A stretch of 29,562 bases of DNA, taken from positions 1-29,562 of the IMG/VR virus record IMGVR_UViG_3300013104_000062; one strand, given 5' to 3'. Below are positions 3,055 to 17,723 of this stretch, piece by piece. Source of the stretch: a virus. The notes under the pieces were generated by a model. The model did no database searches and had not been told where the DNA came from. It saw only the letters and a program-made list of their open reading frames with translations. A program made the translations under genes and the position numbers. Numbering within the stretch: position 1 is the stretch's first letter; each line of letters opens with the position of its first letter.

Positions 3055-3698
3055 TTAGCGCTATTGAACAAGTCGAGAATCCAGCCGCGATGGAACGCGT
3101 GCAAGCCTGGGTCGCCGATCAGCGTCATTTGCTCGATATTCTTGCAACTGCGGAGATTCGCGGACGATTCAACGGTGATGGTGCGCATATCCGACAGGCG
3201 GAATAGAAGTAGCTTGGCGTGCGTCCTGAGACTCGCAAACGACGCCTTGCCCGGTCGATCAGCGAAAAGCTTCTCTGCGTGGCTGTAAATATCGTTCGAC
3301 GTGCCTTTGAAGTAGTGGCTGGCCAGCAGATAAACGCGCTTGATCTGGCCATCGTCCAGCATCTCGCAAAGGGCGCTGATATTGCGTTTTGAGAACCCCA
3401 GCGTGGCGATAATGAGCTCGTCAATCTGAACGCCAGAAAGCTTCAGCACTGCGGGCACAATATGCCACAAGGCAAAGCGCCCTGATACTGCAAGGTGGAT
3501 CGCTTCATCGGCCCACGGTATGTGGTCGATGGCGTCGGCGGCGTCGGTCATTTTCCGCACGTCGCGGAAGTCCCGCCGAACGTGGCGTATGACGTGGCGC
3601 TGATCTCCCTTCAAATGCGGAAGCCGGCGCAGCTGGTCTTCAATCGCGCCGGCGCCGGTGCTGTGCAAAAGAGGATTGACGGATCGCTTGAGGCTCAT
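3051..3698 (-). CDS. Phospholipase-D-like domain protein
   Basis: The protein has 215 residues. The C-terminal half carries a single, partly degenerate PLD-type active-site signature: H160-A-K162 (HAKLLLFRL) followed by E-S-S-A-N at about 177-181. The usual Asp of HxKxxxxD is not in place. Many phages carry single-HKD proteins of this kind with the pattern HAK...SSANL...IEQ. PLD-fold proteins in phages include nucleases and DNA-binding proteins, so a nuclease or DNA-end role is possible and lipid hydrolysis is unlikely. A helical middle region (KRVYLLASHYF) precedes the motif. It overlaps by ATGA both with the upstream glycosyltransferase gene and with the methyltransferase gene, suggesting a common DNA-modification module. 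Activity is uncertain because of the missing Asp. Confidence 0.7.
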   Translation of the reverse strand: MSLKRSVNPLLHSTGAGAIEDQLRRLPHLKGDQRHVIRHVRRDFRDVRKMTDAADAIDHIPWADEAIHLAVSGRFALWHIVPAVLKLSGVQIDELIIATLGFSKRNISALCEMLDDGQIKRVYLLASHYFKGTSNDIYSHAEKLFADRPGKASFASLRTHAKLLLFRLSDMRTITVESSANLRSCKNIEQMTLIGDPGLHAFHRGWILDLFNSAK

Positions 3699-5854
3699 GC
3701 CGCTGCCGAATACTCCGGCAGCTTATCCCAACCGTGCTGCGCAGCTGCTGGCTCCCACGCCTTTTCGGGCTTGTGCAATTTTCTGTTTACGCTGTTGTGC
3801 CATTGCCAGATATATCGCGCCAGTGCGAGCGGGCTGGAAATGTCGATTGGATTGGCTGCCAGATACTTCACGGCGCCGGGCTGGCATGAGCAACTAAAGC
3901 GGGGAAGCTTCGCCACGATCTCATTCACGCGTTGCCGCACTATCGACAGGTCCGGCAGCAATGGCAGCGCGCTGAGCTCCGCCCAAACTGCCGGGCCGTC
4001 GAACGGTTCTTGCGGCGCATCCATCCGCGGCGACACTCGCCCCCGCCAGTCTACTCCCGGCTCGCCAAGGTGATGGGCGGTCAAGTCCAGTGTAATTTGC
4101 TTGTCCTGCGGCCATTGATCGCGGAAATGAATATCGGAGTGGCCAGCGTCCGGCAGAGCTTCTCTATAAAACCGCTGCTGTGATGCGTGCCAGCATTGGA
4201 AAAATCCGCTAATCGGTTGAACGTATTTTTCCTCGCTCGAATGACCTTCCCGGCGCATGCCATGAATCGCGTCGGCCTGTAGGTCCGTCTCGCAGAGCTT
4301 GGCCGCGAGGTGCGCGGGCATAATCATGTCGGCGTCAATGTGCACCAGCCAATCGCCGGAGTGCTCCGCATAGAGCAGGCGCAGACCGTCATTGATCGCC
4401 GCGCCCTTATCGAATCTCGAGCCGTTGAGGTAGAGCTTATCCGTCAAGACCACGCGAACATCGTGCTTGGCGCAGACTTCCTGCGTTTCGGTGTCGCGGG
4501 CGATGGTGACGACGGTGTAGCTGTCAAAGTATCGGCGATTGTGTCGCAACGTCTCTGCCAAGCGGTCGCCGAAGTCCACGCAAACGGTTAGAGCATGGAA
4601 GCGCGGCCGCGTCGCATCCCAGTGCTTTTGAAGATCCGAGACGTAGCTTTCTGCAATCGCCTCGTGCGGCGGCATATGGGCCGGGTCCTTCGCGGGCTTG
4701 CGCGTCCATGCCTTCCATCCACTGCACGTGATGGCTCGCTTACCGGGACAGTTGTGGGAGAAGATATATCGCTTCTCCGTGGTGGTTGGATCATGTTGGA
4801 GCAAGCTGGGAAATCCCGCGTCCCATCGATGTGCGGGCATGGCGTAGTCCAAGCCAAGATATCGCCACGCCATGTGGAAGCATTCTTTATCGCCGAACCA
4901 TAGACGCCAATAATATTGCGCACCATGTATGCGGTTCATCCAGTCGGCCAGCATCAGCGCTCGGTGGCATCGCTCTTTATCGATGACGATTTGGCCAGAT
5001 TCAAAAGCCCACTCGTCGCGGAAGGGAATACCCAAAGCCTCGAACGGAGCGGGCCCCAAGTCGCGCGACATATCCGATGGGGACAGAAAATAGTTGTCTG
5101 GCCAGAAGATGGCGCCATGCCTTGCGAACGGCTCGGAGTCCAGCAGGAAAGCCGGATCGGCGAGCGGTTCACTGTCGGCGTCGAGATAAATCACCTTGCG
5201 ATATTTGCAATTGAGGATCGCCCACGTCTTGGCGGCCCAACCGATGCAAGGCGCTTCGAGAAATGTGACGTCCAGGCCGTCCAATAGCCTTTTCTGCCAG
5301 TCGGGCATTTCATGCGGCCCGTGGACCCATTCAATGGGCAAGGTGCATCCGTAGTGCTCGCGCAGCAATCGCACCGTTACGTAGCCTGAGCAAAGGTAGC
5401 TGCCGCCGGCAAGGATGCAGATTCCGCGGCCTTCGCCTTTGAGGTCGGGCAAAGGCTGGGTGACAAAATCAGCCATTGCAAGGCGATAAGCCTCCCGCAC
5501 ATTATTCCATTTCGTCCAGCGATCAGCGCCGGGATGATCGGCACCGAGAAGCGGAACGATTTCGGCCGGCGGTGTGGCCGGCGTGAAAGGCGCGGGCTTT
5601 TGTCGCTCGATCGCGGCGCGTGTGGATGGTGAGAGCGGGCCTTTGTAGTCGAATTGCTGCGTGCGCGGATCGTTCTTTTTTACTCCCCATTCCAGCCCGT
5701 GCGGGCATTCAAAATCGACGATGTTGCCGGGTACCGTCCATGCCCGTTTAACCATGGCGCGGAAGTTCCGGCCGCGCTCCAAATCGCGGCAGACAAAGCA
5801 ATGCCCGCGGGATTTGCACTCGGGCGTTTCGGCAAAAACTGTCGTAAGCATCAT
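3695..5854 (-). CDS. Two-domain glycosyltransferase with Erv1-like C-terminal segment
   Basis: This 719-residue protein appears to contain two GT-A-type glycosyltransferase domains. Residues 1-110 include a Cys-rich start (C13, C19, C22, C50). Domain 1, about 143-370, begins ICILAGGSYL and carries the metal/nucleotide-binding DxD as IYLDADSEP (D225, D227), resembling Mnn1-like/GT71 or GT8-type enzymes. Domain 2, about 420-610, carries HIDADM (D507, D509), as in GT2-like enzymes. The tail, 640-700, has a CSC pair and a WQWHNSVNRKLHKP segment that resembles the HNxVNxxLGKP helix of Erv1/Alr sulfhydryl oxidases, without the CxxC redox centre. Such enzymes transfer sugars from nucleotide-sugar donors; the acceptor is unknown. 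It follows a cysteine-rich virion-like protein by 3 bases and overlaps the PLD-like gene. Tandem ATG codons (5854, 5851) leave the start ambiguous by one residue. Confidence 0.8.
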   Translation of the reverse strand: MMLTTVFAETPECKSRGHCFVCRDLERGRNFRAMVKRAWTVPGNIVDFECPHGLEWGVKKNDPRTQQFDYKGPLSPSTRAAIERQKPAPFTPATPPAEIVPLLGADHPGADRWTKWNNVREAYRLAMADFVTQPLPDLKGEGRGICILAGGSYLCSGYVTVRLLREHYGCTLPIEWVHGPHEMPDWQKRLLDGLDVTFLEAPCIGWAAKTWAILNCKYRKVIYLDADSEPLADPAFLLDSEPFARHGAIFWPDNYFLSPSDMSRDLGPAPFEALGIPFRDEWAFESGQIVIDKERCHRALMLADWMNRIHGAQYYWRLWFGDKECFHMAWRYLGLDYAMPAHRWDAGFPSLLQHDPTTTEKRYIFSHNCPGKRAITCSGWKAWTRKPAKDPAHMPPHEAIAESYVSDLQKHWDATRPRFHALTVCVDFGDRLAETLRHNRRYFDSYTVVTIARDTETQEVCAKHDVRVVLTDKLYLNGSRFDKGAAINDGLRLLYAEHSGDWLVHIDADMIMPAHLAAKLCETDLQADAIHGMRREGHSSEEKYVQPISGFFQCWHASQQRFYREALPDAGHSDIHFRDQWPQDKQITLDLTAHHLGEPGVDWRGRVSPRMDAPQEPFDGPAVWAELSALPLLPDLSIVRQRVNEIVAKLPRFSCSCQPGAVKYLAANPIDISSPLALARYIWQWHNSVNRKLHKPEKAWEPAAAQHGWDKLPEYSAAA

Positions 5855-5857
5855 TGG

Positions 5858-6877
5858 TTAAAAGTTATTGCAGGATGTTAGCGACACCGTGCCAAAGTCG
5901 CCGTTGTTGTGCGGACCTATGGCCCAATCGGTTGTCGTGCAAAGGCATGGATCACAGCCAGACGCGGAAACTGTGAAGCCGTTCCAGGTGCTTGGGTGTC
6001 CAGATACAGGATTGCCGGCGCCGCATGTCCCGGTTCCCGGCGTGAAGCTTGGGGGTCCGCTGTTGCAAGTAAAGCTTCCTCCGCCGGCAGTGCCGTCTGG
6101 CCATCCAACGTGGCCGCTATTTTGGTCATAAGGCGAGTTGCCGGGCGAATGAATCGTTACAACAACGGTTCCCTGCCAATCTGTAGTAGCCGTCGAACAA
6201 TCGGAGCTGCCGTCGTTTGGAATTGCCTGAACGTGACAAGTAACTTGCAAGTTGTATGGCAAGTCTGTCGCGAGCGTTCCTGTCGTTTCGCAATTGACAC
6301 CGATGAATACTGAGCCGTCGCTCGGTGGCGTTTTGTAATATTGGTAATCGGTGTAGCAACTTAGATCGTTGGTGCATGTCCAATCGGTCGTGCAGAGTCC
6401 ACCAGGGGGCAAGCCGCTGGTTGGTCGAGGTTGAAGGCAGCAATAGAACGGACCAAAAAGCGGACTGTCTAGAAAGTGAAGATTGACAAGATTCCCGCTG
6501 CCGTCATTGCCAAGAAACAAGCAATCACAGCCCGCACTCATGCCCCAAACAACGCGCACGATGCTGGGCATCGATTCATCTGCGCTGAGCGTGCAATCGG
6601 TACATGAGCATCGACAGCCGAAGCACGGTTGATATGGGCTCCCAGCCTGAAACCACTTGCCGTAATTTGGATTGGTTGTACCCCCGTCGATCGTGTGCCG
6701 CATGTCTTTGAATATCTTGCCGGTCCAATGATCGATAAGATATTTTTTGGATGGATCGATGCCGATGCGCGGAGCACTGCGGCGCGGGAGATAAATTCGC
6801 GACTGACGGCGCGCAGGCTGGCGGCGCATCGGCCGAAACACTCGCGGCATTCGGCCAAGTTCTTTAATCAGTGGCAT
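5858..6877 (-). CDS. Cysteine-rich, probably virion-associated protein
   Basis: The preferred start is ATG 6877, giving 339 residues, because it overlaps the upstream stop as TAATG; an earlier ATG at 6898 is also open. Residues 1-40 are strongly basic (R-rich). The body is rich in Gly, Thr, Ser, Pro and Cys, with about 21 cysteines often paired (PCFGCRCSCTDC, CDC, YCC, GCDPCLC). The low-complexity beta-rich composition, and its position after the tape-measure-like and small tail genes, suggest a distal tail or adhesion protein held together by disulfides or metals. No family is recognised. The neighbouring glycosyltransferase with an Erv1-like tail is the next gene. A disulfide-rich, possibly glycosylated surface protein is an inference. 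Confidence 0.7.
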   Translation of the reverse strand: MPLIKELGRMPRVFRPMRRQPARRQSRIYLPRRSAPRIGIDPSKKYLIDHWTGKIFKDMRHTIDGGTTNPNYGKWFQAGSPYQPCFGCRCSCTDCTLSADESMPSIVRVVWGMSAGCDCLFLGNDGSGNLVNLHFLDSPLFGPFYCCLQPRPTSGLPPGGLCTTDWTCTNDLSCYTDYQYYKTPPSDGSVFIGVNCETTGTLATDLPYNLQVTCHVQAIPNDGSSDCSTATTDWQGTVVVTIHSPGNSPYDQNSGHVGWPDGTAGGGSFTCNSGPPSFTPGTGTCGAGNPVSGHPSTWNGFTVSASGCDPCLCTTTDWAIGPHNNGDFGTVSLTSCNNF

Positions 6878-7353
6878 TAGGCTGACGCTCCTGAGCAACT
6901 AATACCGGCAATCGCCATGAATTCGTAAATTAGCGTACCGTCTGAGTTGGTATGCAAAAGTGAGCCGATGCCGATAGAACCGGAAGCAAGGTTATTCGTC
7001 CCGTCTGCGATCTCTAGAATATTGATTCCCATGCCCGTCGCTCCTGCTGTGCCAAGCTCCGTAGATGCAACGGGGGTTGAGCCGGTCGTGAGGATGTCGC
7101 TGGTTGGGGGATTGAGAGCGGTCACGTTGTACATTGCGCCGCGGCTACCGGGCGCGCCGATGGAAAGGATCACCAGACCCTGAGCGGTAATCTTTGTAAG
7201 CGGGGTCTGCGGAGGCGGAGGATCGATATAACAGGTGAATGTTTCATCTGTGTTGGTGACGCGCACATTCGGACCGCTGATCCGCATGTGCTGCATCTTC
7301 CGCCAGAGTTTTTCCAACTGGCGGGCCTGAGTTGGGCCGAACTTCGCATCCAT
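6877..7353 (-). CDS. Putative tail/virion protein, 158 aa
   Basis: The protein has 158 residues. An N-terminal charged helix (about 1-25, AKFGPTQARQLEKLWRKM) is followed by a Thr/Gly/Pro-rich, beta-prone region with a proline run (DPPPPQTP, about 45-52) and Gly/Ala-rich C-terminal half. The N-terminal helix plus beta-rich body is typical of small trimeric virion or fibre-associated proteins, but no named family is recognised. It starts 2 bases after the tape-measure-like gene and its stop overlaps the next gene's ATG as TAATG, so it belongs to the tail part of the operon. Confidence 0.65.
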   Translation of the reverse strand: MDAKFGPTQARQLEKLWRKMQHMRISGPNVRVTNTDETFTCYIDPPPPQTPLTKITAQGLVILSIGAPGSRGAMYNVTALNPPTSDILTTGSTPVASTELGTAGATGMGINILEIADGTNNLASGSIGIGSLLHTNSDGTLIYEFMAIAGISCSGASA

Positions 7354-7355
7354 AA

Positions 7356-9215
7356 TCAGAAGCCAAAAAGATTGGAGCCGTTGTCGTCGGTTTTGAAGCC
7401 GAGCGCAGAAAGCCCTTCCTTGACGGCGTCGGCGATGACTTTGGGGGTAGGAAGCTTTTTCAATTCGGTAACAAGATCCTGAACGGCCTTCGCTATTTCG
7501 CGTTGCGGATCGCGCTGGCTCACAAGCTGCGCCTCTTCCTGCGCATGTCCAAGCGCTCCGGCCGCGGCGGCGCTTCCGCGTCCGGAAATAGTCTGTAAAT
7601 GTGCGAGATTGCCGGGAAGCGGGCGCGTGTCGTGAATGCCGGCAATAGCCTGGGCCATTAGCAATGGGAGCATGCCAAGCTGGTGGCTGGCGGCAGCGCG
7701 GGCATCGCCGCTCATGGCCGGGTTTTCCATGATCGACAGCAATTCCCTCTGTAGGTCGCGATACTTCTGCGCGGCCTCAAGCTTCTCAATTTCAAGCTTG
7801 GCGGTACGGTCGCCGACTTCGGCCTGGGCGCGCAGAACATCAAGATTTGCCTTGGCAAGCTGCGCCTCTCGCTCCTGGGTCTTTACCCGCTCCTGCTCGT
7901 CGAATTGCTTTTTGGATGCGCCACTTTGCGCGGTGAAATTTTGGTAATCCGCCGCGGCTTCACGCAAGCCCATGAAAATATCCGTTCCGACCTGTCCGGC
8001 TCGGGTGGGGAAAAGGCTAAATGTCGTGTCGCGCAGGTCCTTCTGAATCTGATCGCGCGTCTTGCGGTTAAGATCGGCAAGCGCATCGGCAAGGGACTGC
8101 TTTAACTCTGTGAGATGCGCCTCATATTGCTGGCGCTCTTCGGTAAGTCCCGCCGCCCTGGCGTGGGCCAGCGTGTCTTGAATCCGCTTCTCGCCTGCCT
8201 CCAAGACGGCCTTGCGTTGCTTCTGCTGATCCTCCCGAAGCTTGGTGATTTCTTCCTCTGCCTGTTGATCCTTTCTCAATAAGTCGGCATTAAACGAATC
8301 CGTGGTTTTTTGGAGTTGTTCGTCGTGGACTTTTTGCTGTGTTGCCTGTTTCGTGTTGAGTTCTTCAAGGTGCGACTGAAGGGATTTGGCACGTTCCTCA
8401 AGGCGATGCCGTTCACGCTCTGGATAATATGCGTCGGAAAATTTTGCTTCGCCGTTCGCGATACGGCGCTGCTGGTCTGCCTTTTCTTTCTCGGTCTGTT
8501 CTATCTGCTTGTGGATTGCATTGATTTCACTTTGCCGCTTTTCCAGCTCGGCCTGTAAATCGGGCACCTTGGCCTTAATGAGTGCGTCGTTCAAATCCTC
8601 TTTTTGAGTGCGATGCCGTTCGTCGATCCCTTGGCGTAACTGGGCAATGGTTCGGCTGGGACCTTCGAGATATGTGTTGGCGGTGGCATTCTCGGAGGCG
8701 ATAATAGATTTGGTGAATTCCCTCTGTTGATCATGAAATGCCTTAATGGCCTCGAAGTCATGTTTACGAAATTCAGCCCGTTCCTTGTCCAGTTGCGCCA
8801 ACTCTCGTTGAATCTCGAGCTCACCGCTCATCAGGTCAACGATATTGCGCGTCGCTGAATAGAAGTTGCCCAGCAGCGGTAGGCCCTTGGCGATCTCGTC
8901 GACCATTTGGCCGCCGGTGATTTTCCCTTCATCGAATTTCTCGACCAGTTCTTTAAGCTTCTCTGTCCCTTCCGACAGTTCGCGACCCAGCAGGCCCACG
9001 CCAAACAATGCGCCGCCGCCCTCGGCAGCATGCAAGACGTGGCCGAACGTGCTGGAACGACCGAATAGCTCGTTGGCCTTTTCAAGCTGGCCGTGGATGC
9101 CTTCGCCAAACTCGCGCTCGAATACTTCACGCGCCTCGCGCGCAGCGTATTGGATTGAAGGCGCGTCGGTAGACGCCTTCACGTTAAATGTGAGGTCGTT
9201 GGGTGACTGGCTCAT
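7356..9215 (-). CDS. Tape-measure-like coiled-coil protein
   Basis: This 619-residue protein is dominated by long charged helices (about 130-500) rich in E, K, Q and R with heptad-like patterning. It has a Gly/hydrophobic stretch near 63-80 and a second near 108-130. It is the longest gene downstream of the tail tube and the frameshifted chaperone, the position of the tape measure protein in siphoviruses. Tape measure proteins set tail length at about 1.5 angstrom per residue, which would imply a tail near 93 nm if all residues contribute. Clear transmembrane helices are missing, unlike many tape measures, so a different internal tail or chaperone-like scaffold role is possible. Residues 141-159 match the membrane protein encoded at 1627-1956. 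It lies 2 bases after the preceding tail gene. Confidence 0.65.
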   Translation of the reverse strand: MSQSPNDLTFNVKASTDAPSIQYAAREAREVFEREFGEGIHGQLEKANELFGRSSTFGHVLHAAEGGGALFGVGLLGRELSEGTEKLKELVEKFDEGKITGGQMVDEIAKGLPLLGNFYSATRNIVDLMSGELEIQRELAQLDKERAEFRKHDFEAIKAFHDQQREFTKSIIASENATANTYLEGPSRTIAQLRQGIDERHRTQKEDLNDALIKAKVPDLQAELEKRQSEINAIHKQIEQTEKEKADQQRRIANGEAKFSDAYYPERERHRLEERAKSLQSHLEELNTKQATQQKVHDEQLQKTTDSFNADLLRKDQQAEEEITKLREDQQKQRKAVLEAGEKRIQDTLAHARAAGLTEERQQYEAHLTELKQSLADALADLNRKTRDQIQKDLRDTTFSLFPTRAGQVGTDIFMGLREAAADYQNFTAQSGASKKQFDEQERVKTQEREAQLAKANLDVLRAQAEVGDRTAKLEIEKLEAAQKYRDLQRELLSIMENPAMSGDARAAASHQLGMLPLLMAQAIAGIHDTRPLPGNLAHLQTISGRGSAAAAGALGHAQEEAQLVSQRDPQREIAKAVQDLVTELKKLPTPKVIADAVKEGLSALGFKTDDNGSNLFGF

Positions 9216-9217
9216 GG

Positions 9218-10186
9218 CTAATTGTTCTGGCGCAGAATGTTGATGAAAGGCACTGATCGCAATCGAGTGAATTTGAGAATCGTAACGGTCGGCGTGCTTA
9301 GATCGGCGTCAATCGGCGCGGGTCCGGAAACCGGAAGCGATGCCGCAACCGGCGTCTGTGCGCTGCTTCCATCCCACACATACCAGCGCGAATCGAGCGG
9401 CTTGCCGGTGCCGTCAAGCAAAACATCTTCGTTGGCGAAGTCGCCCTTTTTGGTACAGAACGGGCCGCGCTCCTGCGAACCGCCGGAGCTGTACCAGCCA
9501 TATCGGCCCTTATCGACCACGCGCGGTTGCCATGGGTCCTTGATGTCGGTGCGGACGTTAAGAATCACGTCCATGGCCACATATTTGTCGGTGCTCTTGA
9601 CCGCTGTAGCCAAACCGTACTTCTGGCACCACGCTTGTCCTGGTGTAACGGTCCCGATTCCGGGAATGGTGATCACGTCGCTGTTGACGGCGTTCTCATA
9701 GGTGGTTGCGGCACTTCCGTTATAAAAAGTGGCATACCAGCGGGCGCGGAAAGAGCGATACCCCTTATTGAGCGTCAACTGTGGATCGATCGGCGACTTG
9801 GCGGAATTCTGAATGGTGACGCCGGAAAGGTCCTGCAGCACCGGCTCGTAGTTCTCAACCGGCTCAATCATGAGCTCCATCGGAAGGAGGATGCGATTGA
9901 GCGGAAACGCGACGTTGTTCGAAAGCGTAAAGCTGATGCTGACCAGCCACGCTAACGGGGCAATTGATCGGGCATTGACGTGGGCCACAGTGAGTCCGGC
10001 AAATTCCGGGTCCGGGTGTGGGTCTCCGCGCTGTATCGGCGTCCCGCTGCTGTTGAGGATCTGGTTCTGTGCATCGATCTGGCTTGAAACGCCTACGATG
10101 GTCCATGCCTCGATAGCGGTAATCTGATTACCCTCGATCGCGTAGGATCGGCCGGACCAGTTGCGGGTTACTGATGGCGTACTCAT
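9218..10186 (-). CDS. Putative tail protein, 322 aa
   Basis: This 322-residue protein is beta-rich and has no transmembrane segment. It starts MSTPSVTRNWSGRSYAIEG. A central region with W, Y and N residues (RARWYATFYNGSAATTYENAV) suggests a virion structural domain. It begins 4 bases after the stop of the frameshifted chaperone fusion and ends 2 bases before the tape-measure-like gene. This is an unusual insertion between two genes that are normally adjacent in siphoviruses. A second tail tube-like protein, a distal tail protein or a baseplate component are all compatible. No family could be named. Confidence 0.65.
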   Translation of the reverse strand: MSTPSVTRNWSGRSYAIEGNQITAIEAWTIVGVSSQIDAQNQILNSSGTPIQRGDPHPDPEFAGLTVAHVNARSIAPLAWLVSISFTLSNNVAFPLNRILLPMELMIEPVENYEPVLQDLSGVTIQNSAKSPIDPQLTLNKGYRSFRARWYATFYNGSAATTYENAVNSDVITIPGIGTVTPGQAWCQKYGLATAVKSTDKYVAMDVILNVRTDIKDPWQPRVVDKGRYGWYSSGGSQERGPFCTKKGDFANEDVLLDGTGKPLDSRWYVWDGSSAQTPVAASLPVSGPAPIDADLSTPTVTILKFTRLRSVPFINILRQNN

Positions 10187-10190
10187 GGCT

Positions 10191-10879
10191 TTATGTGGGT
10201 TTCATCCACCGCGCTATTTCCTTGCGGAAAAAGCGAACGGCCTGATTGAAGCTGGCGGATTGATTTAGCGCGCCGCCGGCGATGGGCGGAAGTCCGTTTT
10301 CCAGCATGTCCGCGAATTGCAAAAACTCGACGATCGCACTCGGGAGTGACTGTTTTGGACAGGCATAAAGCGAGCGTTCGCCGTCCTGGCAGTGCTTGCA
10401 GCCTATTCCTTCACATTCGGGGCAATTGACGACTGTGGGGCTTGTCCTGCAATCGGTTTCGCATTTGCCTCGGCAGCCGGTGCAGATTCGCCCTGCCCTG
10501 AGTCCGGCTGCGATTCGGAGAAAAAACGATCTTCCTCACCGATAAGAATGGTCTTGAGCTGGCCCCACGCCAGTTGTGCCAATTCGCGGCTACTCAAGAA
10601 TTCGCCGAACCTTTTGATCTGTTTGAATTCGATCTGCTGGCCACGATAGACGACGTTTTTGCAGCCGACTACGCCGATGCGAATGGCCTCTTCGATCAGG
10701 TCTGTTGCTTTGTCGGCGTCCTTCTCGGCCGCTGCCTCGTCCAGAAGCTTGCGCAGCCTTCGGTATTCGATGTCGTTAAGGAATCGGACGAAAAAGGTTG
10801 GCCGACTTTCGATCGGCTTGCCCAAATCGTGTTTGAGGTAAAACGGCTCGGTTTCGTTGGGGTCGGCGTTGATCGGCAT
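10191..10879 (-). CDS. Tail assembly chaperone, -1 frameshift fusion (gpGT-like), 229 aa
   Basis: A long product is predicted by a -1 ribosomal frameshift at T TTT TTC (10520-10526). Residues 1-120 come from the zero frame. Residues 121-229 come from the -1 frame, which stays open from the slip site to a TAA at 10191-10193, just 4 bases before the next gene's ATG. The extension has nine cysteines (fusion residues 133, 136, 140, 144, 153, 156, 161, 164, 174) in pairs such as CTGC and CPECEGIGCKHC, like a DnaJ-type or zinc-ribbon metal site. A helical tail ends EIARWMKP. In lambda the homologous gpG/gpGT pair is made the same way; gpGT binds tape measure and tail tube proteins during tail assembly and is absent from the virion. 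The -1 frame has no start codon or ribosome site of its own. Confidence 0.8.
10403..10879 (-). CDS. Tail assembly chaperone, short form (gpG-like), 158 aa
   Basis: This is the zero-frame product from ATG 10879 to TAG 10403, 158 residues. Residues 1-118 form a charged helical domain (FVRFLNDIEYRRLRKLLDEA) as in siphovirus tail assembly chaperones. Residues 121-158 are a low-complexity Ser/Ala/Pro/Gln tail, which is what read-through without frameshifting would give. It lies between the tail tube gene, behind a strong terminator, and the tape-measure region, the standard place for gpG. In lambda most ribosomes make this short form and a few per cent make the fusion. Confidence 0.8.
   Translation of the reverse strand: MPINADPNETEPFYLKHDLGKPIESRPTFFVRFLNDIEYRRLRKLLDEAAAEKDADKATDLIEEAIRIGVVGCKNVVYRGQQIEFKQIKRFGEFLSSRELAQLAWGQLKTILIGEEDRFFSESQPDSGQGESAPAAEANAKPIAGQAPQSSIAPNVKE
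10520..10526 (-). promoter_or_regulatory. -1 ribosomal frameshift slippery heptamer T TTT TTC
   Basis: On the minus strand the bases are T TTT TTC, in the X XXY YYZ phase of the zero frame: codons 119 and 120 are TTT and TTC, both Phe. After a one-base slip the -1 frame is open for 109 codons. This heptamer type is a recognised -1 slip site. A downstream RNA structure was not folded. Confidence 0.8.
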
Positions 10880-12403: not shown

Positions 12404-13065
12404 GGATTTTGGGAAAGGTCGGGGGACGTATCGGCCGGCTGGCCCTTAGTGAAGCGATCAACCTGGCTCTGCGCCTGCTTGGCCATGTAGGCGGCGGCGT
12501 CAAATCGGATGCGCTGCAGTACGTCGGGAATAGAAACCAGCTTGTGAATCGACGGCCCGAATTGCTCTCTAATGGCCAGCCTGCCGGCGAAGCCTGCGGG
12601 GGTAAGCTTCAATGCGGGACGGCCATGCTTATTGAGTCTGCTGGCGTTGGGTCCTTTGGTCGGAAGATGCCGCGCGCGCAGGAAAATACCTTCGTGGTCG
12701 CCGCTGCCGACGTTGGCCATGAATCCGTGGCGCAGGACTACAGGCGGCAGCAACTTGCTGACCCGCACTGAGACACCGCCGCGCTTCAGCACTCGCGCCT
12801 TGAATGCTGCCAGCGGGATTGCCCGCTTTTTGACGATGACCTTGCCGACAGGCGGATCGCCTTGGGGGCTGACCTGGGTAACGACCCGATCAACCCATTT
12901 CTTGTTGATATTGACCTGACCGCGCACCTCGCGGCGAATCAGCTTCACAAGCTGCGCAGTCGTCCGCTTGACGATCTGGTAGCTTGCGCGGCGGAGCTGG
13001 CCAGCGCTGAGGCGCTCGGCAAGCTTCTGGCGCTGATCTTCCGGCAATATCAGTTCGATGGGCAT
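12400..13065 (-). CDS. Minor tail protein Z-like / head-tail component
   Basis: This basic protein has 221 residues. The N-terminal half is helical and Arg/Lys-rich (ASYQIVKRTTAQLVKLIRREV), followed by VRVSKLLPPVVLRHGFMANVGSGDHEGIFLR and a C-terminal helix. This fits prophage minor tail protein Z (PF06763-like), where a helical start leads to KRIPLAAFKARQ-like strands, a central H-G-F segment and a REQFGPS motif (here REQFGPSIHKLVSIPDV). gpZ acts in tail completion and head joining. The start overlaps the upstream stop as TAATG and the stop overlaps the downstream start as ATGA. Confidence 0.75.
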   Translation of the reverse strand: MPIELILPEDQRQKLAERLSAGQLRRASYQIVKRTTAQLVKLIRREVRGQVNINKKWVDRVVTQVSPQGDPPVGKVIVKKRAIPLAAFKARVLKRGGVSVRVSKLLPPVVLRHGFMANVGSGDHEGIFLRARHLPTKGPNASRLNKHGRPALKLTPAGFAGRLAIREQFGPSIHKLVSIPDVLQRIRFDAAAYMAKQAQSQVDRFTKGQPADTSPDLSQNP

Positions 13066-13568
13066 TACTGAGGCAGTTCGTTGACGGTGACGGAAGCAAA
13101 CAGGCCCTGCGCTAGCGTTCCACCGCCGGCTGTCGCGGTAACAACGACCTCAAGCACATCGCCGGATGCGACTGCGGTTGTGGTAACGGCTCCGGAAACC
13201 AATTGCCGGGCGGTCTGTGTGTTGTTGAGAGTGATGACGGCTGAGAGAACCGTCGTGCCGTTCTTTCGCAAGTCCACGGTACACGTTGCGGCCCCGACGT
13301 TGGGCACGACAGCGCCGGCACGGAACGCGATAATCGTTCCGCTGGTTCCGTAGACGGTGAATATGACCTTAGTGTCAGCGGCGGCTGTGGTGCTGCTGCT
13401 GCCCTGGGTATAAACCGCACGGTGCTGGTGCATGACTTTGCTTGCGTCGATGGCTGCCGCTGCCGGTATTTGGCTGTTACCTACACTGGCGGCCGGAATG
13501 ACCATGTTCTGTGCGTAGAGCGTTCCGGAAATGACAACATCTGTCGGAATGTTTAGGGGCGTACCCAT
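13065..13568 (-). CDS. Beta-rich virion protein, possible decoration or fibre protein
   Basis: This 167-residue protein has a short N-terminal motif (TDVVISGTLYAQNMVIPAASVGNSQI, about 9-34) resembling the linker of fibre or capsid-binding proteins. A beta-sandwich-like body of alternating Thr/Val/Ala strands (about 50-167) follows. Similar modules bind capsids or form short trimeric spikes on phage heads. A head-surface decoration role is inferred from its place between head-tail joining and gpZ-like genes. No catalytic motif is seen. It is separated by 18 bases from the upstream gene, with a GAGGAT ribosome site, and overlaps the next gene's ATG as TAATG. Confidence 0.65.
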   Translation of the reverse strand: MGTPLNIPTDVVISGTLYAQNMVIPAASVGNSQIPAAAAIDASKVMHQHRAVYTQGSSSTTAAADTKVIFTVYGTSGTIIAFRAGAVVPNVGAATCTVDLRKNGTTVLSAVITLNNTQTARQLVSGAVTTTAVASGDVLEVVVTATAGGGTLAQGLFASVTVNELPQ

Positions 13569-13586: not shown

Positions 13587-13931
13587 TTAGCGGCAGCGAA
13601 CGAGCCAGCCGGTCGCGTCCTGCTGAACGATTGAAACGAGCGTGTGAATCGACGGCTGGCCGCCCTCGATCGTCGGGAAAGAAAACTTGTCGCCCGATTT
13701 GGTCGGCTCGGACGGGAAACTGCTGGCGGGGATCCAAAATTCAAAAAAGGGAATGAAAGTCTCTTTGACCTTGTTGGCGCCGGCGACGGTTTCAGGCGAA
13801 ACGCGTTTGATGACGGCGGTAAATGGATATTGCCGACCGTCGGCGCGCGTGGCGGTCACTGATTCGCTAAAGATGCCCGATGACATAAAAGCGGTATGCA
13901 TCGACGCGATTTGGTCGAACGGAATGCTCAT
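13587..13931 (-). CDS. Head-tail joining protein (gpFII-like)
   Basis: This 114-residue beta-rich protein begins MSIPFDQIASMHTAFMSSGIFSES and continues with A-D-G-R-Q-Y-P-F-T-A-V and ends WLVRCR. Small phage proteins that start with a helix containing an F-G-E/S-x-x-T/V pattern and continue with a small barrel are head-tail joining proteins or connector-assembly factors (lambda gpFII class). It lies between the glycosyltransferase genes and the gpZ-like gene. An ATGA overlap couples it to the last glycosyltransferase gene, so those genes must be translated in the head-tail operon. Confidence 0.65.
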   Translation of the reverse strand: MSIPFDQIASMHTAFMSSGIFSESVTATRADGRQYPFTAVIKRVSPETVAGANKVKETFIPFFEFWIPASSFPSEPTKSGDKFSFPTIEGGQPSIHTLVSIVQQDATGWLVRCR

Positions 13932-14440
13932 GCCAAAACTCGCTTTACTTCAATGCCCCTGGCGTCGATGAGGCGAATAAGGCGGCTGTAAATTTCGCGC
14001 TCAAGCTTCCATCGCTCGGGGCTGCGATTGCCGGCCTGATTCCATCCGTCAAAGTCATTCGTGCCGGTCCAGTCACAACCGAATATCTCGATCTGCTTCG
14101 CGCCGGCGTGCGCCGCATACACAATCGCGGCGGTAAACGTGAACATGGTCCATGAACAAGAGGCAGGGTCGAGGTACGAAAATAGCTGCTCAAACTCCGT
14201 CACCTTGCCCGGCCATTCGCGTCCCTTGTCGCGCAGGTAAGCGTTGGTGTTGGCGGCAGTGAAAAGCTCCGGCTTGCCAATCACGTCAGGGCGCTGGTCG
14301 GTGAGCATGGGAATGTCGCCAGCGGCCCAAACGTCGGCGCTTCGGAAACCGATCGCCCGATTGACGGCGATGGTTAAATCGGCCGGGCTGGGCACTGCGG
14401 TTCGCAAGCTCGGACCTGGGCAAAGGATTTGGGCTCTCAT
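13928..14440 (-). CDS. Glycosyltransferase-like protein (DUF115/sialyltransferase-like fold)
   Basis: This 170-residue protein begins ILCPGPSL (residues 5-12) and goes on with AVNRAIGFRSADVWAAGDIPML. The GxGPSL...VNR...D-x-x...D arrangement is typical of the nucleotide-sugar domain of DUF115/MptE-like and sialyltransferase (GT42-like) enzymes. The second half has IFGCDWTGTND and a terminal helix. It is short for the family, so it may be a minimal catalytic domain. It is the third of three consecutive glycosyltransferase-like genes joined by ATGA overlaps inside the head operon. The acceptor is unknown; virion protein or cell-surface glycan are possible. Confidence 0.65.
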   Translation of the reverse strand: MRAQILCPGPSLRTAVPSPADLTIAVNRAIGFRSADVWAAGDIPMLTDQRPDVIGKPELFTAANTNAYLRDKGREWPGKVTEFEQLFSYLDPASCSWTMFTFTAAIVYAAHAGAKQIEIFGCDWTGTNDFDGWNQAGNRSPERWKLEREIYSRLIRLIDARGIEVKRVLA

Positions 14441-15084
14441 GCGGCAAACGGTTCGTGGCCGGGAAATCCGGCGTGCTTGCGCTGCTCAAATAGCGCCTTC
14501 GAAATTGCCCACTGGCTTTGCGCTTTGCCGAGGTGTGGCGGCGGTTGATTGGTGGAAAGCGACCAGTGCGCGTGTCGCTGGCCAAGATCGCGGCGGCGCC
14601 ACAAGACGGTTAGCCGATCGGCTACCTCTCCCGCCTCGGTATCATCAAAAAAGTGGTAGTAGTCGGGCCAGTAAGGACCGGCGCCGCGATTGATCCGCCG
14701 GGCATAGTCGGCACCCATCCAGCAATGATCGGTGGATTGTCCCTGGCTCAAGTCATACTTGGCCAAGTGCATCACGCCAAACCCATCGGGGAAGCGGGCA
14801 AAGAAATCAGCGGCAAGATCCTGCGCCGACTTATCCGCGCACGGATAAAGATCGTCGCTGCCGGCGATGATGATGTCGGCCACATCGGTTACTTCACGCC
14901 ACAACCGGTTGATTGACTTGGCATAACCTTCGTAGCGGTCTTCGATCGCCAATGAGCAATTTTTCGGCACGCGGGTTCCGGGGTCGATAAATGCCGCGAC
15001 GTGGTAACCTGCGCACGTCCACCGCGCAAAAACATCATCGGCATCGAGGCGAATCGACGGTGCGAGCATCCAGACGTTTTTCAT
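14437..15084 (-). CDS. GT-A-type glycosyltransferase
   Basis: This 215-residue protein has a GT-A-like Rossmann start (VWMLAPSIRLDADDVFARWTCAGYHVAAFID) and the acidic nucleotide-sugar motif IIIAGSDDLYP (D77, D78) after a helical segment. This resembles GT2-like enzymes in phages and bacterial glycan clusters. HWSLSTNQPPP and a C-terminal helix follow (about 173-200). It would transfer a sugar from a nucleotide donor to an unknown acceptor. The gene overlaps its upstream and downstream neighbours by ATGA, so the three transferases form a translationally coupled set. It is similar in layout, not clearly in sequence, to the large transferase at 3695-5854. Confidence 0.7.
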   Translation of the reverse strand: MKNVWMLAPSIRLDADDVFARWTCAGYHVAAFIDPGTRVPKNCSLAIEDRYEGYAKSINRLWREVTDVADIIIAGSDDLYPCADKSAQDLAADFFARFPDGFGVMHLAKYDLSQGQSTDHCWMGADYARRINRGAGPYWPDYYHFFDDTEAGEVADRLTVLWRRRDLGQRHAHWSLSTNQPPPHLGKAQSQWAISKALFEQRKHAGFPGHEPFAA

Positions 15085-15638
15085 CGCCTGAGCCTCCGGC
15101 TAGCCTGCATATGCTCGATAACCGGCTCGCCTGCCGATGCCATGACGTCGAAAATCTGTGTATAGGACGGCGGCAATTTCTCAACCTTCAAATCGGTGCG
15201 TCCGTCCACCAGATTTTGCAATACATGCTGATCCCATTCGCGCGGGCGCTCGTGGCATGCCTGGGCCCATTCATTTAAAAGCCGGTCGGCCCCTCGCGTG
15301 GCTCCGAAATAGAGCGTCCCGGATAAGAGCTCCGTTCCGTCTTTCCAGTGTGCGGCAAAATCCACGTCGGTGGGCATCTCGGGAAACAGGCTTGGGTATT
15401 GCCTGACCCGCGCATCGGCGTCCAGCCAAACCAGCGGACGGTCGGGGCCGTGCTTGGCTCGCATATGCCGGAGAAATTTCGGCTTGTATGCGCACGCTGC
15501 TACCCAATCCTGGAACGGCGGCACCGCTACTAAATCGGATGGCAGTTGGTAGCGGTCGAGAGTATGGCCAAGCTCCATTGCCTCGGCTTCGTAACCGTTG
15601 CCGGTGGTATAAAAGCAAACGTAAATTGGTGTGGGCAT
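15081..15638 (-). CDS. Nucleotide-diphospho-sugar transferase-like protein
   Basis: This 185-residue protein opens PIYVCFYTTGNGYEAEAMELGHTLDRY and has YKPKFLRHM followed by LVWLDADARV, with the DxD at D73 and D75. This pattern, a K-P-x-F helix then a strand ending in LDAD, matches the nucleotide-diphospho-sugar transferase family (PF03407-like). It then has ELLSGTLYFGATRGADRLLNEW and DQHVLQNLV, also typical. It is a short, probably single-domain enzyme with an unknown acceptor. It is the first gene of the three-gene set and lacks a clear Shine-Dalgarno. A perfect 7-bp hairpin lies 13 bases upstream. The gene before it is the DUF2190-like head decoration gene. Confidence 0.75.
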   Translation of the reverse strand: MPTPIYVCFYTTGNGYEAEAMELGHTLDRYQLPSDLVAVPPFQDWVAACAYKPKFLRHMRAKHGPDRPLVWLDADARVRQYPSLFPEMPTDVDFAAHWKDGTELLSGTLYFGATRGADRLLNEWAQACHERPREWDQHVLQNLVDGRTDLKVEKLPPSYTQIFDVMASAGEPVIEHMQASRRLRR

Positions 15639-15678: not shown

Positions 15679-16029
15679 TTAGGGCTGGTTAAGAAGGATG
15701 CCGGCGGAAGTCGCGGCCGATGCATAGGGACCATCGGAGCGCCCGGCGTTGGCGTTGCCCGTGCTGCTGCTGGTCAAGCGGGTATTGGTAGAATCCCAAT
15801 AAATCCGCTGACCGGTCGTAAACACGTCGCCCGATTTCTTCGTGAGCGTGTGATTGCGGCGCACTTCCAGTTCGCCCGTTCCACCGTTGGCGGCAATCGT
15901 ATCGACAGCGATGCCGAGGTAGCCGGCGGTATTGGAATTGACGAGAACGACAACGGCACCGGAAGCGATCGCGCTGCCAGTGGTGTTGGTGTACGGAATA
16001 CGCACACCTTCTGCTTTGAACGTAAGCAT
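15679..16029 (-). CDS. Capsid decoration protein (DUF2190-like)
   Basis: This 116-residue protein contains RIPYTNTTGSAIASGAVVVLVNSNTAGYLGIAVDTIAANGGTGELEVRRNHTLTKKSGDVFTTGQRIYWD in outline. This matches the DUF2190 family: V-P-Y-T-N, S-G-x-V-V, G-x-A-x-x-D-I, G-x-x-G and a late GxxVYWD strand. DUF2190 proteins are found beside major capsid genes and act as head decoration or stabilising proteins. A purine-rich AGAGG lies 9-13 bases before ATG 16029. It follows the major capsid gene by 59 bases and precedes the glycosyltransferase set. Confidence 0.8.
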   Translation of the reverse strand: MLTFKAEGVRIPYTNTTGSAIASGAVVVLVNSNTAGYLGIAVDTIAANGGTGELEVRRNHTLTKKSGDVFTTGQRIYWDSTNTRLTSSSTGNANAGRSDGPYASAATSAGILLNQP

Positions 16030-16088: not shown

Positions 16089-17723
16089 TTATTGACCGTT
16101 GTCTTTCACGAGCCCGCGATAATCGAGCGCCTTGGCGGCGACGGTATGGCGGACGGCAAATTTCATGTCTTCGGTGTCGAATTCCTGTTCCTGGCGGAGA
16201 ACCGGCTCGGGTTCGCCTTCAAGGAATGACACTTCGACCGTTTCGACCTGAGCGTCCGCCGGGTCTGCGGCCAGATACCACGCTGCGGTAGAGTTGTCGT
16301 CCAGACGCGGATCGGTCACCAGCGTCAAGCGGTTCGCCCACGGATTGTTTGAGCCGACCGTCTGCGGCGCGGTGCTGGTGGTGCTGATCACTGCCAGAAG
16401 CTGAGTGCTGTTCAAGAAATTCTGAGCACTCGTTTCCAGACTCACCGGCGCCAGCATGAATTTCGGAGTGATATTCAAGCGGGCGGCGCCAGCCAAGCCT
16501 TTCTGTCGGCGCATCAGTGCGGCTGCCTTGCCGACTTCCGACACGCTCGGGGCCGTGCCAGAGCTGATCAAATTGCTATGGTTGGCATGGAAGAGCGCCG
16601 TATTGTCGGTAATCATCGTGGGGTTTGAAGTCACGATGGCATACGCCACGTCGTCTTCCTTACGGCCTGCGGCGTTACCCTGCTGAACAGGAATGCGTTG
16701 GAACGCGTCAAGATCGTCGTTGATCATCGCCTGGCGCGTTAATTTGATACCGCCGATGTACTCGACGAGTGCATACGTCTCGTTCGAATCCTTCAGCACG
16801 GTGTAGATGATTCCACCGCCCTGGGCGCGCTGCTGAAGGTCTCCCGCTTCGGAGATGTTTGTCCGGTTGATGGTCTTGAAGTCCGGAGCCTGTCCGCGTC
16901 GCGCCCATTTGCGCCACGTCGGCGTCTGATCGCGGTAAGCCTGCAGAAGCGACTTATTGGCGGCGTCCTTCAGGATGCCGGGGAAATCGCCGATCGATTC
17001 CGCCAGCATGACCAGCCGGCCTCCGCCTTCGTTGCGAAGATCATCACGATTCATGCAAAGCCGAATAACTCGCGAGGGCGTCATAAAGTTCACTTCGCCC
17101 ATGCCGATGGCGCTGAGGTATTGCCGGCCCATGTCCACCAGCGACAGGCTTTGGAATCGCTGAGCGCGTTCGTAGACAGACAGGCCGACGGCGTCCGTCG
17201 GCTTCTCCACTCGGCCCAAACCGCAACGGGCCTGGGCACGCAATCGAAGCGCGGTGGAAATTGTTGCCTTGAGGCTGACGGTCCCGGCGTCTTCGCCGAC
17301 GCGGATTTGTACGGCGGGGTTATTGTCGGCCATGGCTTTGAGGGCGTTGGTCTGGACCGTGGGAAGATCCCACTTCTGCGAGACAGCCAGATTCACAAAC
17401 TTTTCGTCCAGCTTGTAAATCGTGGCCAACGATTCGATATCCGTCCGGCGCTTCCGCTCCAGCGCGATAAGGTCGGGCGGCTGATTAGCCGGCGTCGCTG
17501 CGGGCGCAGCTTGGCCCGGCAGCTTGGCCGCCAGCGCTTCCGGCGTTTCGCCGGTCACCTTGGACAGAAGCTTGAGCGCCTTCTCGCGGGCCTGGGCCTT
17601 CGTGAGCTTCACCGGCGTTTTTGCCGGCGTGGCGGCAGCGCCGCTATTGGCGCTGAGGGAAACGAGCCTGACGGGCACCACGCGCGAATTGCCAGCGGTG
17701 CCACGATGAGACAACTGGTTCAT
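16089..17723 (-). CDS. Major capsid protein (Mu gpT-like, HK97 fold expected)
   Basis: This 544-residue protein has a low-complexity, Ala/Pro/Lys-rich N-terminal region (about 1-150) and a C-terminal capsid domain (about 155-544). The capsid domain contains NISEAGDLQQRAQGGGI, ALVEYIGGIKLTRQAMINDD, ALFHANHSNL, GLAGAARLNITPKFMLAP and FAVRHTVAAKALDYRGLVK. These are features of the Mu-like major head subunit family (gpT / Phage_capsid_4 type). The N-terminal region may act as a delta domain or scaffold removed by the prohead protease. A GAGG ribosome site precedes ATG 17723. It is preceded by the protease gene and a hairpin, and followed by the DUF2190-like decoration gene, the usual head order. 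Confidence 0.85.
   Translation of the reverse strand: MNQLSHRGTAGNSRVVPVRLVSLSANSGAAATPAKTPVKLTKAQAREKALKLLSKVTGETPEALAAKLPGQAAPAATPANQPPDLIALERKRRTDIESLATIYKLDEKFVNLAVSQKWDLPTVQTNALKAMADNNPAVQIRVGEDAGTVSLKATISTALRLRAQARCGLGRVEKPTDAVGLSVYERAQRFQSLSLVDMGRQYLSAIGMGEVNFMTPSRVIRLCMNRDDLRNEGGGRLVMLAESIGDFPGILKDAANKSLLQAYRDQTPTWRKWARRGQAPDFKTINRTNISEAGDLQQRAQGGGIIYTVLKDSNETYALVEYIGGIKLTRQAMINDDLDAFQRIPVQQGNAAGRKEDDVAYAIVTSNPTMITDNTALFHANHSNLISSGTAPSVSEVGKAAALMRRQKGLAGAARLNITPKFMLAPVSLETSAQNFLNSTQLLAVISTTSTAPQTVGSNNPWANRLTLVTDPRLDDNSTAAWYLAADPADAQVETVEVSFLEGEPEPVLRQEQEFDTEDMKFAVRHTVAAKALDYRGLVKDNGQ

Follow-up and report, generated by a model that had tools for sequence, protein, structure and literature searches.

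A recurrent, putative glycosyltransferase cassette in the late virion operon of an IMG/VR phage

In Corndog-type phages, an O-methyltransferase gene and three glycosyltransferase genes lie between the portal and protease genes, according to one report (PMC4351075), and the capsid of Corndog has been reported to be glycosylated, with a requirement for gp38 (PMC12363180, citing Freeman et al. 2023). The Firecracker and Catdawg records hold this same series at that place. To our knowledge, phage-encoded virion glycosylation has so far been documented mainly in mycobacteriophages. Here we describe a trio of adjacent genes, g1, g2 and g3, in the IMG/VR virus record IMGVR_UViG_3300013104_000062, whose 29,562 bases, possibly a fragment of a genome, were taken whole as the window. 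Along the minus strand, the gene order runs terminase, portal, capsid-protease fusion, cement protein, g1, g2, g3, a 114-amino-acid gene, a 167-amino-acid gene, neck protein and tail genes. On the evidence of its sequence, the trio is a real, recurrent cassette of putative glycosyltransferases.

Family and fold of the three proteins

A first-pass annotation of this DNA had placed three coupled genes between the capsid decoration gene and the tail genes, and both the genes and their setting were confirmed. Genes g1 (15081..15638), g2 (14437..15084) and g3 (13928..14440), all on the minus strand, are joined by 4-base overlaps to each other (g1/g2 and g2/g3) and, through g3, to a presumed head-closure gene; they stand between the decoration gene (PF09956) and the neck gene (phrog_27) with the tail genes downstream of it. 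In each of the three genes, codon usage fits the called frame better than any of the other five, and their G+C content of 58-59% is that of the neighbouring genes. Because 4-base overlaps are ordinary in the window (7 of 20 listed gene pairs), they say little about the trio; what lifts it beyond chance is that the same three families recur together at other loci.

The 185-amino-acid g1 product, a predicted nucleotide-diphospho-sugar transferase, is well supported as a glycosyltransferase by its family assignment. Like PF03407 transferases, it scores above the curated Pfam cut-off (24.2 bits against 22) and carries a DxD motif (residues 73-75), but the alignment covers just the later half of that profile (103-176 of 208). 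The same Pfam family is matched by 8 of 15 g1 family members, and T11, Y16, W45, K52, D73, D75, G107, W124 and H176 are invariant in all 15 aligned sequences; we take D73 and D75 to be a functional metal/nucleotide-binding DxD. Profile matches of g1 in the PDB were weak, namely a xyloglucan xylosyltransferase (E 0.69) and the Skp1 galactosyltransferase (E 0.95). Single-sequence scans of viral contigs found no relatives of g1 or of g3, and tblastn against 50,697 phage records matched one uncultured phage for g1 and none for g2 or g3.

For g2 (215 amino acids), the predicted structure supports a GT-A fold glycosyltransferase well. The model is of high quality (predicted local distance difference test (pLDDT) 89.6; predicted template modelling score (pTM) 0.87), with b4GalT7 (3lw6, E 1.3e-6) as its best Foldseek match and 9omm (Z 15.1, 181 residues aligned, root-mean-square deviation 3.0) as its best VIA match; all 50 listed VIA matches are glycosyltransferases or sugar polymerases. 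Its fold resembles that of the GT-A enzymes b4GalT7 and WrtF fucosyltransferase, whereas sequence identity is low, about 6-17% in the rows listed. At E values up to 1, g2 matches neither a Pfam nor a PHROG family, and a PDB profile search with it returned no meaningful match. Residues D77, D78, D148, H171 and H173 are shared by all 12 orthologues. The earlier expectation of a DxD or GPSL motif in each protein therefore holds for g1 (D73-x-D75) and g3 (GPSL at residues 9-12), but not for g2, which reads D77-D78-x-x-P and has no classical DxD.

The weakest member is g3, a shortened protein of 170 amino acids that we regard as a remote relative of phrog_4603 and of MptE-like/GT42-sialyltransferase-like proteins, with uncertain catalytic activity. 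No Pfam family matches it by itself, nor does any PHROG family with E up to 1, phrog_4603 included. A profile built from eight g3 relatives and locus L015, with the window left out, recovered it at E 4.1e-5 (Z=1000; next match 0.51); three smaller sub-profiles did not. Its model is of moderate confidence (pLDDT 70.8), and Foldseek matched it to nothing at an E value of 0.001 or below. VIA set it among a group of MptE/HPPK proteins, thiamin pyrophosphokinase and GT42 sialyltransferases with Z scores of 8.2-10.1.

These surroundings admit another account of g3, in which g1 and g2 would be the working transferases and g3 would bind nucleotide or acceptor as a Rossmann-type partner, either diphosphokinase-like or without catalytic activity. 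GT42 (Z 8.2-8.6, 136-157 residues aligned) scores no higher than HPPK (Z 8.8, 119 aligned) and thiamin pyrophosphokinase (Z 10.1, 116 aligned); 7 of 9 g3 relatives have MptE-like matches, below the Pfam cut-off where scores are shown; and the HxxY motif (H180/Y183) that is invariant in six g3 relatives is missing from g3 of the window. The family profile, however, reaches the GT42 enzyme CstII (E 0.01) and no kinase, and fused relatives described below match phrog_4603. We consider a non-catalytic or kinase-like g3 unlikely, and it would in any case be compatible with the explanation that we favour for the cassette as a whole. Fold prediction, which had been proposed as a check on all three proteins, thus upheld a glycosyltransferase fold for g2 and returned a divided picture for g3; of the three glycosyltransferases first suggested to modify the virion, g1 (by Pfam family and DxD) and g2 (by GT-A fold) bear out that identity, and g3 does so only remotely.

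Recurrence of the trio and fusion of g3 with g1

Profile scans with g2 and g1 uncovered further viral loci (given L numbers), and our counts cover the window plus 18 distinct viral g2 loci. The rows excluded beforehand were L001, which is the window itself, L012, L013, L025 and L026, which come from the contigs of L003 and L004, and L027, which agrees with L002 in length and match position; the 19 counted include short or truncated contigs and three weak g2 matches (L017, L019 and L020). A g1 gene accompanies g2 in 14 of these 19 loci, and all three families are present in 10. At L015, which lay outside the g1 and g3 profiles used there, the series g3-g1-g1-g2 follows terminase and portal.

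We also scanned for g3-type genes with six g3 relatives of other phages as seeds, excluding the window, which gave 142 relatives, 80 loci of which were taken. A g1 domain is fused to the g3 domain in one open reading frame (ORF) in 37 of the 80, lies within 400 bases in 9 and farther away in 5, so that 51 of 80 loci have one, fused or separate; none was seen in the remaining 29, two of which (L084 and L151) have less than 300 bases of downstream DNA. Grouping at 70% identity left 51 groups (27 fused, 7 near, 5 farther, 12 with no g1), and removing five already-known contigs (L078-L080, L118 and L138) left 75 loci (36 fused, 5 near, 5 farther, 29 with none). A g2-like domain occurs in 22 of the 80. 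On the g3 side, the fused proteins of L121 and L112 match phrog_4603, annotated as an alpha-2,3-sialyltransferase; on the g1 side, PF03407 is matched above its cut-off in fused loci L134 and L119. When the fused proteins of L112 and L115 were run by tblastn against the 50,697 phage records, 13 and 20 records matched, with no single place covering 80% of the query.

Since the g3 and g1 families are fused elsewhere, though separate in the window, they appear to work together, and we regard the fusion as strong sequence evidence of their joint function. The synteny search, suggested in the first-pass annotation as a further check, was thus positive, with the trio or the fusion recurring beside head or tail genes in unrelated phages; judged by gene content, the grouping is no chance event. 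The domains can also be multiplied: L119 and L120 each hold a 1021-amino-acid ORF (3896-6961 in both) with one g3 and two g1 domains in a single protein.

Insertion beside virion genes and the lineage of g2

Upstream of the trio, the window encodes a cement/decoration protein (15679..16029; PF09956, E 7e-16; phrog_122, E 3.7e-14) and a major capsid-protease fusion protein (16089..17723; PF25209, E 1.4e-55; phrog_4523, E 7.5e-108), both on the minus strand. We found 33 viral loci with relatives of this capsid protein, the best at 35% identity; 17 of them hold at least 3 kb past the capsid match by hand count, and several are near-copies. None of the 33 was matched by the g1, g2 or g3 profiles. 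Downstream of the cement gene, L066, L069, L061 and L048 have a gene for 102-116 amino acids and then one for 222-247 amino acids, with no transferases; the cement gene is doubled in L061, and an extra 99-amino-acid ORF follows it in L048. Compared with L066, L061 and L048, the cement protein of the window is significantly similar, whereas the similarity of the window's head-closure and neck genes to the genes in the same positions is not significant. Because the capsid relatives of the window lack the trio, comparative gene order marks the trio as an insert in the late virion operon. The view that a normal head module has no such set accordingly applies to the relatives of this capsid, but not to phages generally, as Corndog-type phages have such sets.

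Other carriers hold the cassette in varied surroundings. The upstream neighbours that recur in the 80 g3-type loci are a 387-amino-acid phrog_24820 protein and a 339-amino-acid phrog_24071 protein, both of unknown function, and a phrog_122 decoration protein. In 44 of the 80 loci the g3-type gene directly follows the phrog_24071-type gene, and in 41 the decoration-type gene takes the second position upstream. From its position we presume the phrog_24071-type protein to be a capsid protein; it has no PDB match by profile. A gene of this type also occurs in Microcystis phage MACPNOA1 (E 5.9e-43), in 16.9 kb of which the g1-g3 profiles found no match. A Gp13-like major capsid protein (PF20036) lies upstream of the cassette in L112, a head-tail adaptor and connector directly precede the fused gene in L121, and in L004 the cassette is next to terminase and portal. 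The prophage of Acidobacteriaceae bacterium KBS 96 (L031) reads terminase, portal, protease, capsid, GT2, g2, FkbM methyltransferase, GT2, head-tail adaptor and head closure, so that its g2 island lies right at the junction of the capsid gene and the head-tail genes. Because these head modules differ (terminase-portal, decoration-phrog_24071, Gp13-like capsid, HK97-type prophage), the gene arrangements point to repeated insertion of the cassette beside virion genes. A g1 search of 343 genomes of the phylum Planctomycetota matched four, among them L166, a host-linked carrier with a g3-g1-GT2 series (8464-10861) behind a tail-like region and, by eye, an apparent large serine recombinase 4 kb further on. 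In 14 of the 80 g3-type loci, a 116-amino-acid cupin-like gene, possibly a sugar isomerase, adjoins the g3-g1 gene (before it in 7, after it in 7; for example, L106 and L152).

The lineage of g2 bears on where its product would act. A scan of bacterial and archaeal genomes with g2 gave 18 loci, and 14 loci are in Planctomycetota chromosomes. In a tree of 36 sequences, the viral side (15 viral rows and three virus- or prophage-like rows, L028, L031 and L032, the last not inspected) splits from 18 Planctomycetota chromosomal rows with support 97/92. Neither g1 nor g3 occurs at any of the 14 chromosomal loci, and g1 is absent from all 14 of the corresponding whole genomes; the same profile does match elsewhere. 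Given the separate clade and the absence of the partner from chromosomal loci and genomes, phage g2 is best described phylogenetically as an established viral lineage rather than a recent copy of a host gene. Several chromosomal homologues from Phycisphaerae (L029, L030 and L035) have genes close by that look, on visual inspection, like the surface-glycan genes HldE or KdsB, and those in L029 and L030 are in tandem.

Proposed function and relation to known systems

We infer the enzyme activities, acceptor and purpose of the cassette as follows. Inserted in the late virion operon, with its translation coupled to that of the head genes, the cassette would supply soluble cytoplasmic enzymes that draw on host sugar nucleotides and, while particles are being assembled, furnish a phage structural protein with a short glycan. 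Sugars would be transferred by g1 (PF03407-like, GT-A) and g2 (GT-A); g3, whose relatives are often fused to a g1 domain, would serve as their partner, either as a GT42-like transferase or as a degenerate substrate-binding subunit. The glycan might shield the particle or change its adsorption. That the trio glycosylates a virion protein is, in our judgement, somewhat probable, given its position, the fusion, the scarcity of proteins for membrane export and a precedent set by unrelated enzymes. More tentatively, the GPSL/GT42-like and PF03407-like GT-A domains, split here and fused elsewhere, could act as a two-domain engine which, together with a second GT-A enzyme, would begin and lengthen a glycan on a capsid decoration protein or another head protein during assembly; such a module would be widespread, repeatedly inserted and hardly represented in sequenced phage records.

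Solubility bears on the choice of target. No hydrophobic stretches occur in g1-g3 (KD19 at most 1.06), and KD19 exceeds 1.7 in 1 of 93 proteins of 10 islands and in 10 of 287 proteins of 75 loci, mostly of soluble types by eye. With soluble enzymes and islands nearly devoid of hydrophobic stretches, the target is more likely a protein in the cytoplasm, produced at the same time from the same operon, than a glycan that is exported or flipped. The enzymes might instead be late transferases that alter lipopolysaccharide or another surface glycan of the host, sparing progeny from re-adsorbing to debris or excluding rival phages. This has a counterpart in the glycosyltransferase-rich islands in the structural region of pelagimyophages, for which the authors favour modification of the host O-chain (PMC7029224), and in those Planctomycetota chromosomal g2 homologues that neighbour surface-glycan-like genes. 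Flippases, GtrA and polymerase-type membrane proteins are, however, almost absent from the islands, and the chromosomal homologues form their separate clade without the partners; peripheral transferases acting on lipid-linked glycans may be compatible with so few membrane proteins. We hold a host-surface target to be rather unlikely.

Glycosylation of modified bases in phage DNA would be a third role for such transferases. Phage glycosyltransferases that act on DNA are known (PMC12619734), and the window holds a DNA methylase gene (PF01555). The window proteins scanned (part of the ORFs of a record that may be a fragment) include no base-hydroxylating or thymidylate-synthase-like gene, however, and the FkbM methyltransferases, sulfotransferases and sugar epimerase that sister islands also carry fit a protein or lipid glycan better. 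DNA hypermodification is thus highly improbable.

Under virion glycosylation, the acceptor candidates are the cement protein, which has 13 Ser/Thr within 30 residues, and the 167-amino-acid protein (13065..13568, minus strand) encoded between the neck gene and the 114-amino-acid presumed head-closure gene (13587..13931, minus strand; assigned by position and overlapping g3 by 4 bases). The 167-amino-acid protein, a candidate surface protein, has 22% Ser plus Thr, is Ser/Thr-rich near residues 54-83, and matches no Pfam family and phrog_12702 alone (E 0.033). No gene occupies its position in L066, L069, L061 or L048, and it is possibly both a second insert and an acceptor. We set aside Ser/Thr-rich stretches as proof of an acceptor because related proteins from cassette-free loci were lacking as a baseline.

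Several observations weigh against glycosylation of a virion protein by a three-enzyme cassette. An acceptor family common to the cassette loci was sought and none was found, the non-glycosyltransferase families of the window being absent from the other cassette loci. In L005, L014, L166 and the Caulobacter phage CcrColossus, the cassette lies behind tail genes, so a head target is not general. No g1 domain is visible in 29 of the 80 g3-type loci; g3 of the window lacks the C-terminal segment of its relatives along with HxxY; the pelagimyophage authors chose a host target; and the Corndog-type enzymes show no homology to g1-g3.

Elsewhere in the window, a 719-amino-acid protein (3695..5854, minus strand) has two glycosyltransferase-like domains (PF11051, E 3.7e-21; PF13704, E 1.6e-4, below the cut-off) and a C-terminal Erv1/ALR-like domain (PF04777, E 3.4e-7) in which the usual CxxC reads CSC. 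It has no relatives in viral contigs or phage records and possibly belongs to the same glycan pathway as the trio. The neighbouring gene (5858-6898) encodes a Cys-rich protein with 21 Cys, whose combined oxidation and glycosylation is conceivable.

Virion glycosylation by a cassette that recurs in other, uncultured lineages, among them one prophage of a sequenced Acidobacteriaceae strain and another of a Planctomycetota genome, would imply that phage particles bearing sugars are common, and such host-linked carriers allow virion and host-surface targets to be separated. CcrColossus, a cultured giant phage of Caulobacter, is tractable for glycan work. There (L158, 13956-18509, gp126-gp131), a g3-family gene, the sugar transferase gp129, a methyltransferase and the GT9 protein gp131 directly follow a tail protein gene; gp126 (phrog_4603) resembles g3 as a member of the same GPSL family by profile (E 3.4e-20), whereas gp129 is not recognised by the g1-family profile. 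The pelagimyophage host-recognition cluster differs from the window in its much larger island (mean 44.6 kb) and its tail fibres (PMC7029224).

At title and abstract level, the literature yielded no description of the trio or of the g3-g1 fusion. Similar to the window, Corndogvirus phages (Firecracker gp33-gp36, Catdawg gp33-gp36 and Corndog gp35-gp38) hold glycosyltransferase genes with 4-base overlaps in the head module; unlike it, they have them between portal and protease rather than after a cement gene, and with an O-methyltransferase. Phage-encoded glycosylation from inside the virion operon is therefore already known, and in the literature covered the enzymes described here had not been linked to such systems. 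By analogy, Corndog-type phages are the closest functional precedent for this cassette, through likeness of arrangement and not through membership.

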